From a virus: 20,845 nucleotides of DNA. The stretch lies in IMG/VR virus record IMGVR_UViG_3300046653_000028, positions 1 through 20,845 of that record; one strand, given 5' to 3'. A program made the position numbers and the translations under genes. The stretch's first letter is position 1. The number at the start of each line of letters is the position of its first letter. Positions 831 through 8,432 of this stretch are shown here, piece by piece. The notes beneath the pieces are model-generated. The model searched no databases. It saw only the letters and a program-made list of their open reading frames with translations, and was not told the DNA's origin.

Positions 831-3188
831 CGCCAACCGCGTGATGGTTTCATCGTCCACGGCGCGGCGCACCACTTGCGTCACGTGACCAGTGGCGACC
901 GACTCAGCCATTGCGCGCGATGTAATCTTCGGATCCCACGCGGGGATCGTGCCACCGTCTGCTTGCAGCTCTGGCGCATACGGAACGCAGGTAAGATGCA
1001 CCGTTTGGTCGGCCTTCTGGGCAATCCCCGTTACCAGCGCCGCAAGCGTCTCTTTGCCAGCTATACCAAATACGCAGTGATTCCCCGCTACTGGCGCCTG
1101 ATCTGGAGAAAGAGGCGTGGACAACACCAGCGTGTCGGTGTTTCCGGCCACGGTGACGATCTGCAAAAGCCCTACCGATGATCCGCGCTGTGGCTTCAAA
1201 ACGTAGTTGGTACCGGCCTCCATCGGCACGATTTCGTCGATCACAAAGCCCGTGACATAGCCATCGCTAACTCGCGTCAACACCTGTTTTATCCGGGTTC
1301 CGCGAATGCCCACCAACATGCGGGTGTGGGCGACGTCCACGCGCGAACCCCACGGCGCTACGAGGCCTTCGCGGTCGCAATCCCACTCATAGGTTTCAGG
1401 ACGGTGCGTGCGGCTCTGGATATAGCGCCAGCCGTAGACATAGGCCTCAGCCGCGTCCGTCTTGGTATCGGTATGGATGGCCTCAATTGCCGAGGCGGTG
1501 CTGGCGTCGTAGCCATCGGCATAAACGGTGCGCACCTCTTTCTGATAGCCAGAAGCCGCATCGAAAAAACTGACGTTCACTGCATGTAGGGCCTCGGGAA
1601 ACACGATAGAGCCCGAGAAATTACACACGTTGCGGCCTGAGAACAGCTGCACAGGTGCGGTGCGCTCATTGTCGATGGAGACGGTCAGCTGGCCTTCGTC
1701 CCACGGCGTTCCCAACGCCTGACCGGAAAGCGCCACCAGCGTCATCACCTGTTCGACACTCATCTCGGTATCGATGACCGTGTCGCACTTCCATCCCTTC
1801 ACCGCGCAGGTTTCGGCAAAGGCACCGATATTTGCGACATTGAAGCGACCGATCAGCGGGCGTGCGTTAGCTGGACCCCGAGCGATCCAGGAGAGCTGAT
1901 CTGCGGGATTGCTGGAGGCATCCTGTCCGGTGAACTCTCCCGCTGTTGCATTCCAGGTTGGAATTAGCGCCTCAACGATGCCGTTCAATTCGGCGATCTG
2001 ACCATTGAGCTGATTTGTGGCGCGGATGCGCAAGGCTGTTAGGGCGAAGTTATCGCCGATTACTGGCAGACCTTCGCCGAACGAGCGCATGCAGGTCCAA
2101 AACACTTGATCTTGCAGGCGCGGATAATTGTCACCAGCATCCGGCCAAACTCGCAGGATCTGCACATCATACTGCCCCTTGGCGACAGCCCATGAGATGT
2201 TGCGGCGGAACGGCTGCGCTTTGGCTTCCAGATATTTTATGACACCCGCATCTCCGACTGGGGCATCGATCCACGTAGCTGTATCGATAGGGCGATACTG
2301 GATATGCATATCGCATCGCGCTTCATCCTTGCCGTTCCACGCCAGACCGTTCGGCCACGCAAGATCGATACTGATCTCGGTCGTATCGACCTGGGTCTGT
2401 CGTGTAACCCAGCCGTTGTCATGAACGAGTTGGAGAGTGCCATAGGTGTCTTCGCGCACCACACGGTTGTAAAGTGATGGAAAGGGATCGGATGGCTGTA
2501 ATCGGTGCTGCACCTCAACGTCATTGAAAATACTGAGCGGCGTCTCGCCGATCCTAAGGTCGCTGAGGCGGACGGGTCCGACGCTCCATTGCACCAACAT
2601 GCGCAAGTAGACATCGTCGCCGACCGTTTCCGTCCAAGTTGACGCCGCCAGTCCTGGAACCACGCGCCGCTTGCCCAACACGACGGGGCAAATGCCATCA
2701 GGGTTCGCATTATTTGATGATCCCGAGATGCCGTAGGTGCTTGCGCCACCAGAGCGTCCACCACCCAAAAGACGCGACACTAGGCTTCCTGCCATGCCAA
2801 GCGCGGCGCTTTCAGTCATCGCGACAAGGCCAAATATCGCCTGGGCGGCGGCAAGCGAGGAGATACCGAAGGCCGAGGTGATTGTGGCTGTGATCGAGGC
2901 AGGCGCTAGAGCCGCCACGATGTAGGAGATCGCCATCGCGATGGTTTCATACTGCGGCGTCGGGTAGAGCAGCACATAATCGCCCGCAAGCGGCACGATG
3001 GTCTCGCGCTCATCAGGCAGGACTTCAGCCCGATTGACATAGGTTCGTAGGCGTCCCAGTTCGTCGCACTCGATAAGCCCGGCTTCAACCGCGCGATCGA
3101 CTATATCCGCCAGTGTCAACGGTTCGGCGATATCGAGCGTCTTGCGGCGGCCGCCGATGGGAGCGGCTATCTGGACGGTGATGGTCAT
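1..3188 (-). CDS. TipJ / lambda J-type host-specificity tail tip protein (3' end outside window)
   Basis: The reading frame runs open from the ATG at 3188 to the left edge with no stop, about 1062 codons, so the C-terminus is missing. The start overlaps the preceding stop as ATGA. The first 60 residues or so look like a small ubiquitin-like or sulfur-carrier-like region, followed by an Ala/Ile-rich hydrophobic stretch (about 85-145). Then comes the family's characteristic segment with ICPVVLGKRRV near residue 166. The middle part (about 180-780) is a long beta-rich, J-like body. From about residue 800 the protein becomes a tandem array of roughly 65-71-residue units. By family knowledge, such proteins form the tip of non-contractile tails and contact the host receptor. 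The NlpC/P60 and DUF1833 genes just upstream are its usual neighbours. The frame was checked at four points across the gene and no frameshift was seen. Confidence 0.88.
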   Translation of the reverse strand, partial: MTITVQIAAPIGGRRKTLDIAEPLTLADIVDRAVEAGLIECDELGRLRTYVNRAEVLPDERETIVPLAGDYVLLYPTPQYETIAMAISYIVAALAPASITATITSAFGISSLAAAQAIFGLVAMTESAALGMAGSLVSRLLGGGRSGGASTYGISGSSNNANPDGICPVVLGKRRVVPGLAASTWTETVGDDVYLRMLVQWSVGPVRLSDLRIGETPLSIFNDVEVQHRLQPSDPFPSLYNRVVREDTYGTLQLVHDNGWVTRQTQVDTTEISIDLAWPNGLAWNGKDEARCDMHIQYRPIDTATWIDAPVGDAGVIKYLEAKAQPFRRNISWAVAKGQYDVQILRVWPDAGDNYPRLQDQVFWTCMRSFGEGLPVIGDNFALTALRIRATNQLNGQIAELNGIVEALIPTWNATAGEFTGQDASSNPADQLSWIARGPANARPLIGRFNVANIGAFAETCAVKGWKCDTVIDTEMSVEQVMTLVALSGQALGTPWDEGQLTVSIDNERTAPVQLFSGRNVCNFSGSIVFPEALHAVNVSFFDAASGYQKEVRTVYADGYDASTASAIEAIHTDTKTDAAEAYVYGWRYIQSRTHRPETYEWDCDREGLVAPWGSRVDVAHTRMLVGIRGTRIKQVLTRVSDGYVTGFVIDEIVPMEAGTNYVLKPQRGSSVGLLQIVTVAGNTDTLVLSTPLSPDQAPVAGNHCVFGIAGKETLAALVTGIAQKADQTVHLTCVPYAPELQADGGTIPAWDPKITSRAMAESVATGHVTQVVRRAVDDETITRLANDPVPDGYITNDKIADGTIDPLAKFIAGMEAIKVVTGAALPTTKITNTIFWTVTCKQYTWDTASGQYKIKIDTSDLTGSIIAAQIADASLTTAKFAAGIEPVTIVTGTTVPTAKSTSTIFLTGTGKIYRWNGSTYVATVATTDLSGTIASAQIADAALTLTKFASGIEPITIATGSLPTTKSTSAIVYGGELYRWSGTAYVKTVQTTDLSGTIIGPQIADAAITTTKFASGIEPVSLVTGALPTTKSTSAIVYGGELYRWSGTAYVKTVQTTDLSG

Positions 3189-3367
3189 AGCCGCTCCCCA
3201 AACCCAGCGACGAAGGCGCTAGGGGCAAAGGAGTGAAACGGCACGATCACCGTTAGATTGACATCGCCTTCGAACACATCCGTCCAGGTCGAGGCTGCAA
3301 GTTTTGGCATCACGCGGCGTTTGCCAAGAACAACCGGACAGATGACATTTGGTTTCGCGCTGCTCAT
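3185..3367 (-). CDS. Mosaic 60-residue mini-gene (TipJ-like piece plus NlpC-like tail)
   Basis: This is an ORF with an ATG at 3367 overlapping the NlpC stop as ATGA. Its own stop overlaps the TipJ start in the same ATGA way. Residues 8-37 match TipJ around its residue 166: 22 of 30 are identical, including ICPVVLGKRRV and LAASTWT. Residues 39-60 match the C-terminus of the neighbouring NlpC protein: 16 of 22 are identical, including TVIVPF and the final ERL. No catalytic residue of NlpC is present. The joined order (tip segment, then NlpC end) is the reverse of the gene order, as expected at a tandem-duplication junction. It is probably a recombination remnant that has kept its frame and overlaps. 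It could still be translated, because coupling on both sides is preserved. Confidence 0.5.
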   Translation of the reverse strand: MSSAKPNVICPVVLGKRRVMPKLAASTWTDVFEGDVNLTVIVPFHSFAPSAFVAGFGERL

Positions 3368-7644: not shown

Positions 7645-8432
7645 TTAGACCCGTTTGAGGGCCGCTGTGGCGCGGGCGTCGAAGATCCGCAGCGCTTCGC
7701 CTTCCATGAAGCCGATGGCGTCCAGCAGGCATTCATCGACCGCGATTGCGAGACCGCCCGCCATGGCAGGAAGAACCTCGTATTTGAGGCCGTGGTGACG
7801 CGTGAAGAACACCCGGCCCGCAACGACCGTCTCGACGTTCCATTGGGTTTGCATGCGGTTGAAGAGCCGCACGGCATTCCTATTTTCCGGCTCGACTTCA
7901 AACGCACGGGAGCTCTCACTCTTTGCTTCCTGCTTGCCCAGCGCAGCCTTGATCTGCTCCGGGCTGTACCCTTGCTCTTTCCACTCTCGCGCCAGTTCGG
8001 CGTCATCGAGGTCGTGGCCGCCATCCGCGTCCTCGCCTAAGAGGTAGCAGACGGCGTCACGGAGTTTTTTGCGGCGCGCCCCGCCCGCATTTCCATGTAG
8101 CCTTTCATGAGACCGGACACGGCGTAGGGCAGCGCCATCATGAAGGGGATCGCCACGTCATCGGGAATGGTAGTGCCGCCGTCGTTGGTGAAGCCGTCAA
8201 AGCCCAAGAGCACCTTGCTCGTGATATGGGTATCGACAGACTTGAGCGCGGTATTGGCCTCGGTGATGAGCGCCTCATGCGCGGTCTCGGCAATGAGATC
8301 CAGCGAGAAGCGCGCAATCAGCAGGCGCTCTTCGATAAGCCCGCCGCTAAGCGGCACAGCAATCATGCAGGGCCACAGGATCGAACGGCCCGGTTTGTCT
8401 TCGGCGAAGACGAACATTTTGGGAGATGTCAT
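7645..8432 (-). CDS. Tail assembly chaperone GT (made by -1 ribosomal frameshift)
   Basis: The frame after 8064 is open in -1 relative to gene G down to a stop at 7645, yet it has no plausible start of its own; only a GTG far inside it could serve. A shift at the heptamer A AAA AAC (8070-8064) joins 123 codons of G to 139 codons of the T part, giving a 262-residue fusion. The T part begins LRDAVCYLLGEDADGG and contains a RLFNRMQTQWNVE stretch and an acidic C-terminal half. In lambda and many siphophages, G and GT chaperone tape-measure folding and tail-tube assembly. They always lie between the tube and tape-measure genes, as here. The site and the open frame are seen directly; the fusion product is inferred. 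Confidence 0.8.
8020..8055 (-). promoter_or_regulatory. Hairpin downstream of the frameshift site
   Basis: Starting 8 bases after the heptamer, GCCGTC (8055-8050) can pair with GATGGC (8025-8020, one G-U pair). Inside it CCTC (8044-8041) pairs with GAGG (8034-8031) around a 6-base loop. The spacing fits a structure that stalls the ribosome over the slippery site. Its stability was not calculated. Confidence 0.45.
8037..8432 (-). CDS. Tail assembly chaperone G
   Basis: A 131-residue protein, MTSPKMFVFAED through NSVTPSATS, encoded between the tail tube and tape measure. It fills the position and size of the lambda gpG chaperone, which binds the tape measure before tube polymerisation. The start is the ATG at 8432, one base after the TAA of the tube gene, with no clear ribosome site, so it is probably translated by coupling. 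A longer version from 8477 would overlap the tube gene and adds a Cys/Arg-rich stretch that looks non-coding. The last 8 codons after the heptamer at 8070-8064 are read only by ribosomes that do not shift. Confidence 0.8.
   Translation of the reverse strand: MTSPKMFVFAEDKPGRSILWPCMIAVPLSGGLIEERLLIARFSLDLIAETAHEALITEANTALKSVDTHITSKVLLGFDGFTNDGGTTIPDDVAIPFMMALPYAVSGLMKGYMEMRAGRAAKNSVTPSATS
8064..8070 (-). promoter_or_regulatory. Programmed -1 frameshift slippery heptamer A AAA AAC
   Basis: In the G frame the message reads GCC GCA AAA AAC TCC, so the heptamer A AAA AAC is correctly phased (X XXY YYZ). After slippage the ribosome continues CTC CGT GAC in the T frame. The site lies 8 codons before the G stop, within the overlap of the two frames. 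Placement matches the G/GT frameshift known from lambda. Confidence 0.82.

Follow-up and report, generated by a model that had tools for sequence, protein, structure and literature searches.

A predicted −1 frameshift in a DUF1799-type tail assembly chaperone gene and the conservation of its signal among related phages

In the tail module of the virus analysed here, an open frame termed T overlaps the end of gene G in the −1 frame, which raises the question of how T is translated. The window, i.e., the whole stretch of DNA that was analysed, is the complete IMG/VR virus record IMGVR_UViG_3300046653_000028 of 20,845 bases. Its minus strand carries the canonical gene order tube-G-T-tape measure (Table 1), and this order together with the nearest phage records (RcapMu, RcWaterboi, RC1, and vB_ThpS-P1) suggests a Mu-like siphophage. 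The tail tube protein, which shares 37% identity with the protein annotated as tail tube in RcWaterboi, is the presumed partner of the T domain, and the tape measure protein is the presumed client of both G and GT. The locus is almost certainly a lambda-type G/GT chaperone gene within the tail module of a Mu-like siphophage, in which a −1 slip on A_AAA_AAC, together with a hairpin, would join G to a DUF1799-containing T. A lambda-like G/GT frameshift had already been proposed in a first-pass annotation of this DNA, and this reading is now supported by conservation, the DUF1799 match, the chaperone matches among relatives of G, and the gene order.

Table 1. Coordinates of the tail module features in the window
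Feature	Position	Strand	Details and evidence
Tail tube protein, 312 aa	8434..9372	−	PF18906 Phage_tube_2, E 4.6e-6, 26.9 bits, just below cutoff 27
Gene G, tail assembly chaperone short form, 131 aa	8037..8432	−	ATG at 8432, stop TAG 8039-8037; open frame, site between tube and tape measure genes
Slippery heptamer A_AAA_AAC	8064..8070	−	In phase with G, 8 codons 5' of G stop
Hairpin directly 3' of heptamer	8013..8061	−	MFE, shuffles, family folding statistics
T part, 139 aa + stop, −1 frame, DUF1799	7645..8064	−	PF08809 and phrog_680 matches; TAA stop at 7645
Tape measure protein, 1000 aa	4618..7620	−	PF06791 TMP_2, E 6e-13; PF09718 Tape_meas_lam_C, E 1.6e-8

Elsewhere on the minus strand of the window, a 60-aa ORF (3185-3367) resembles a diverged chimera. 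Residues 1-41 share 61% identity with part of the J-like protein that comes next, and the final 21 match the end of the protein before it (3795-3364) at 71%, with a DNA identity of about 71% for each of the two parts. This ORF is possibly the remnant of a tandem duplication.

At the putative slip site, the 0-frame reads GCA AAA AAC TCC and continues to TAG, and the −1 frame reads AAA AAA CTC CGT GAC; the form of the site in the window is AAAAAACTCC, where TCC is the codon that follows the heptamer. A slip on AAC would create a K-N-L-R-D junction (read through as ...AAKNLRDAV...) and a predicted G-T fusion of 123+139 = 262 aa. A re-reading of the sequence confirmed the initial coordinates of G, the phase of the heptamer, its distance of 8 codons from the G stop, and the length of the fusion. 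T had also been described as start-less, which holds for the stretch before residue 64, and GTG and ATG codons are present further in. A gene caller would go wrong on T, as the first-pass annotation had warned, and take the 0-frame ORF 8024-7617 instead of the real T part; the annotation is corrected here. The motif AAAAAAC occurs twice in the window, as opposed to 1.9 expected occurrences. The second copy (1564-1570) lies on the plus strand, opposite to the local genes and away from any frame overlap, and is probably due to chance. Heptamers of the form X_XXY_YYZ (Y=A/T) are found in phase at 7 of 6,300 codon positions in the genes of the window, and we infer a chance of roughly 4% for one in-phase heptamer within the 40-codon overlap. 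Judged by the window sequence alone, the slip-site signal would thus exceed chance only moderately.

The identity of T is indicated by its matches to PF08809 (DUF1799; E 4.6e-7, 30.4 bits, curated cutoff 26, T residues 55-128) and to phrog_680 (E 7e-13), and DUF1799 is matched by all 71 of the 71 aligned T relatives. The T of lambda belongs to a different sequence family. The G of the window has no match in Pfam, PHROGs or NCBIfam and shares 39% identity with its counterpart in the nearest relative (L034). Among the 83 aligned G proteins, PF08748 (Phage_TAC_4) is matched by 32, phrog_569 by 78, and the tail assembly chaperone family phrog_313 by 44. PHROGs 569 and 680, matched by G and T, respectively, carry the label tail length tape measure protein. 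In Synechococcus phage S-LBS1 (L006:4434-4814), G is annotated as the ATPase component of a cobalamin/siderophore transporter; on homology and position, this protein is a tail chaperone G. Structural models were predicted for both proteins (pLDDT 87.5 for G and 91.9 for T), and a fold search of these models in the PDB returned no match for either; the best model matches of G are unnamed or phage proteins of unknown function. In a sequence search against solved structures, G had no match and T matched only ribosomal protein L20, weakly. The conserved residues of T (K and L at over 90%) start at the slip site, a coincidence of homology and site that is partly built in by seeding the T profile with sequences trimmed at the slip site.

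The collection of relatives depended on the tail tube protein. Used as queries in viral contigs, the G, tube, and tape measure proteins of the window found no relatives, and neither did G in phage records. The tube protein worked as a query, first against phage records and then as a profile, with which loci were collected from viral contigs and bacterial genomes in addition to the phage records. The large collections contributed the best 80 and best 75 loci among the matches listed, a selection biased towards tube proteins that resemble the query profile. Loci related through the major capsid protein carry other tail modules and were of no use as a comparison set. In the virus contigs concerned (L016-L033), the capsid proteins are 27-45% identical to that of the window and homologues of its tube protein, G, and T are not detectable, a pattern that points to the exchange of head and tail modules.

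Both a G and a T homologue were found in 160 loci among the matches listed, of which 131 remained after the removal of near-copies. The heptamer counts presuppose that the G and T profiles assign the frames correctly, which is supported by the 160 loci matching both. T lies in the −1 frame of G in 158 of these 160 loci, and since the −1 overlaps of the relatives keep an in-phase X_XXY_YYZ heptamer (157 of 158 among the matches listed), the doubt left by the window statistics is removed. The 157 heptamers comprise 91 AAAAAAC, 63 GGGAAAC, and one each of AAAAAAG, TTTTTTC and AAAGGGT, so that AAAAAAC or GGGAAAC is present in 154 of the 158 −1 overlaps among the matches listed (87 and 41, respectively, of the 131 non-redundant loci). 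The only −1 locus lacking a heptamer is that of a Klebsiella phage (L015), with C_CAA_AAG before its stop. In the rest of the G and tube genes of the same loci, by comparison, AAAAAAC or GGGAAAC occurs in phase at 4 of 58,885 codon positions. The codons that form the site are disfavoured elsewhere in these genes, which have a mean G+C content of 60%: AAA accounts for 30% of lysine and GGA for 10% of glycine codons. In a tree of 127 tube proteins, AAAAAAC and GGGAAAC were exchanged for each other at least 13 times; it is therefore the slipperiness of the site that has been kept rather than one sequence. The conservation of the heptamer among relatives, on which the first-pass annotation had let its reading depend, is thereby borne out, as the heptamer is kept wherever both frames are.

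Of the two loci outside the −1 class, one (L061:4760-5030) has a G that ends with GGGAAACTAA as in its relatives and a T frame broken further downstream, by either a sequence error or decay. Because this locus retains GGGAAACTAA at its G end, only the other one (L157:2600-2760) truly differs, with T in the +1 (or −2) frame of G around GGCGGAAAATCTC, which could be a −2 shift or a sequence error. A −2 shift has been described for Mu. In Microcystis phage vB_MaeS-yong1 (L008:3355-3361), the heptamer is T_TTT_TTC, located 20 codons before the G stop, and does not follow the R_RRA_AAC pattern; T_TTT_TTC is the heptamer reported for Pseudomonas Mu-like phages (PMC4378225).

Another conserved element is the position of the G stop codon, which directly abuts the heptamer in 118 of the 131 non-redundant loci, whereas the usage of leucine codons and the base that follows would predict adjacency in 17%. 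In 52 loci, T must use the leucine codon CTA for the stop to be adjacent, and elsewhere CTA accounts for 4% of leucine codons. On the tube tree, the stop stayed where it is through at least 27 changes among TGA, TAA, and TAG. The adjacent arrangement was lost at least 12 separate times, scattered over the same tree, and the window represents one of these losses: its heptamer is kept, the leucine is kept as CTC, and the stop is found 8 codons on. The nearest relative (L034) has the stop-adjacent AAAAAACTGA. Either G is under pressure to end at the heptamer or the adjacent stop participates in the slip.

The third element is the hairpin downstream of the heptamer. The window hairpin has an MFE of -31.5 kcal/mol (z -3.5, with 0 of 200 shuffled sequences reaching this stability; z -4.0 when computed with the family) and consists of a 4-bp outer and a 10-bp inner stem, the latter beginning about 7 nt past the heptamer; the TAG stop of G sits in the apical loop. 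This hairpin is likely the stimulator of the slip. Across the 131 relatives, the 40 nt right after the heptamer fold more stably (-1.47 SD, p 1e-22) than other positions up to 300 nt up- or downstream once G+C content is corrected for, and within these 300 nt no other position stands out toward more stable folding. Shuffle z-scores in the family are -1.41 at the site vs. -0.29 in control windows. When ten hairpins were combined, the consensus RNA structure was weak (5 pairs, 2 of them changed on both sides) because stem and loop lengths differ, and position-wise folding statistics were used instead. The idea that a stronger hairpin compensates for a displaced stop was unsupported, the mean z being -1.34 for displaced and -1.42 for adjacent stops. 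Upstream of the heptamer, Shine-Dalgarno-like pentamers start at a distance of 10-14 nt in 13 loci, compared with 1-4 in other 5-nt bins, a mild excess based on too few cases to lean on.

The observed gene layout, heptamer with its conservation, hairpin, and domain families suggest the following course of expression, in which the slip, how often it occurs, and the contacts between the proteins are predictions. The majority of ribosomes would read G to its own stop and thus produce the 131-aa chaperone. In a small fraction, ribosomes with lysine and asparagine tRNAs on A_AAA_AAC would slip back by one base, helped by the downstream hairpin, and continue in the −1 frame to yield the G-T fusion with its C-terminal DUF1799 domain; the T part would be translated only as this C-terminal portion. 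In lambda, G binds the tape measure protein and T binds the tube (PMC5009743). By analogy, G may coat the tape measure protein, and T may recruit tail tube subunits to the G-coated tape measure. The predicted slip rate could be low, since in Escherichia coli A_AAA_AAC promotes shifting less strongly than A_AAA_AAG (PMC5009743; PMC4066793).

Other routes to a protein encoded by T were weighed against this frameshift. Annotators often call T as a gene of its own and start codons do occur inside its frame, as would be expected if T were a separate gene translated from its own start by coupling or reinitiation past the G stop. However, T in the window offers no start codon before a GTG at residue 64 and no ATG before residue 70, and a start at either position would lose half of T including the conserved K-L start. 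The relatives share no common start either: in 82 of 131 loci, T either lacks an ATG or has its first one more than 30 codons into the frame, and an ATG within 10 codons of the slip site is present in 7 of 131. A conserved independent start of T, which the first-pass annotation had named as evidence against the frameshift, is thus missing from the family. As a separate T would also leave the heptamer and the hairpin unexplained, it is very improbable.

Slippage of RNA polymerase on the A run, resulting in mixed transcripts and a change of frame in transcription, is a slightly less probable explanation still. The site does contain six consecutive A, yet 41 of the 131 relatives use GGGAAAC, which lacks a long single-base run, at the same place and in the same phase. 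Moreover, transcriptional slippage is independent of codon phase, whereas the phase is invariant, and an RNA hairpin at ribosome distance fits translation. That the break between the frames stems from a sequencing error or a decayed gene, with G and T being one frame or a pseudogene, is hardly credible: although the window is an uncultivated virus record, the same −1 relation is present in 158 loci including the isolated phages RcapMu and RcWaterboi, and both frames are conserved as proteins.

The frameshift favoured here agrees with several known systems. RcapMu (genes 49/50, JN190960) and RcWaterboi (genes 47/48) have the same gene order, a DUF1799 T in the −1 frame of G, and, as in the window, an in-phase heptamer at the G end. 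Their tube proteins, however, are only 36-37% identical to that of the window, and their heptamer is GGGAAAC directly followed by TGA, whereas the window has AAAAAAC with the stop 8 codons on. The RcapMu GenBank record names DUF1799 and carries the note “potential -1 frameshift” at the corresponding place. An all-A heptamer ending in C had been regarded in the first-pass annotation as a departure from known sites, but it is already a published slippery site for tail chaperones. In Acinetobacter phage Loki, a −1 frameshift at AAAAAAC is predicted for the tail chaperone gene (gp12/gp13; PMC5313236), where, unlike in the window, the stop directly follows the heptamer and an extra gene lies between chaperone and tape measure. 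The chaperone frameshift site is AAAAAAC in six Caulobacter phiCbK-like phages and GGGAAAC in Colossus (PMC3556154), a heptamer pair identical to that of the window family, although these are unrelated large siphophages and the comparison with them covers the heptamers. For gp18/gp19 of Burkholderia phage KL1, a GGGAAAC site with 142-aa and 264-aa products and a downstream stem-loop has been predicted (PMC3483164); in contrast to the window, TGA directly follows the heptamer and a gene intervenes before the tape measure gene. Among haloviruses, A_AAA_AAC is found in HCTV-2 and G_GGA_AAC in HCTV-1 (PMC5009743). Lambda itself produces G and GT by a −1 frameshift upstream of its tape measure gene, an arrangement widespread in long-tailed phages (PMC5009743). 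The window shares with lambda the position 5' of the tape measure gene and, as predicted, the two chaperone forms and the −1 frameshift, and differs in its slip site (A_AAA_AAC vs. G_GGA_AAG).

The predicted frameshift in the window is therefore a well-supported case of a known mechanism and is not novel; it is the family-wide comparison that turned a guess from a single genome into such a case. The finding also assigns a DUF1799 protein to the T half of such a chaperone, and the comparison reveals a family signal of three elements, namely R_RRA_AAC, the adjacent stop, and the hairpin. Stop adjacency seems to be under-reported across the DUF1799 family: a literature search, which was not exhaustive, found no paper on a family-wide stop-adjacent arrangement, and the family-wide count of adjacency and its losses may be new. 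Tentatively, the G stop after R_RRA_AAC could itself be part of the frameshift signal in chaperones of the DUF1799 group, where a stop that occupies the A site beside a weak AAC heptamer may determine the ratio of G to GT, and the window, lacking the adjacent stop, would rely on heptamer and hairpin alone. The stop element is directly testable because phages like that of the window have lost it and, should this doubtful but possible role hold true, the window would be a natural comparison case for the role of the stop.
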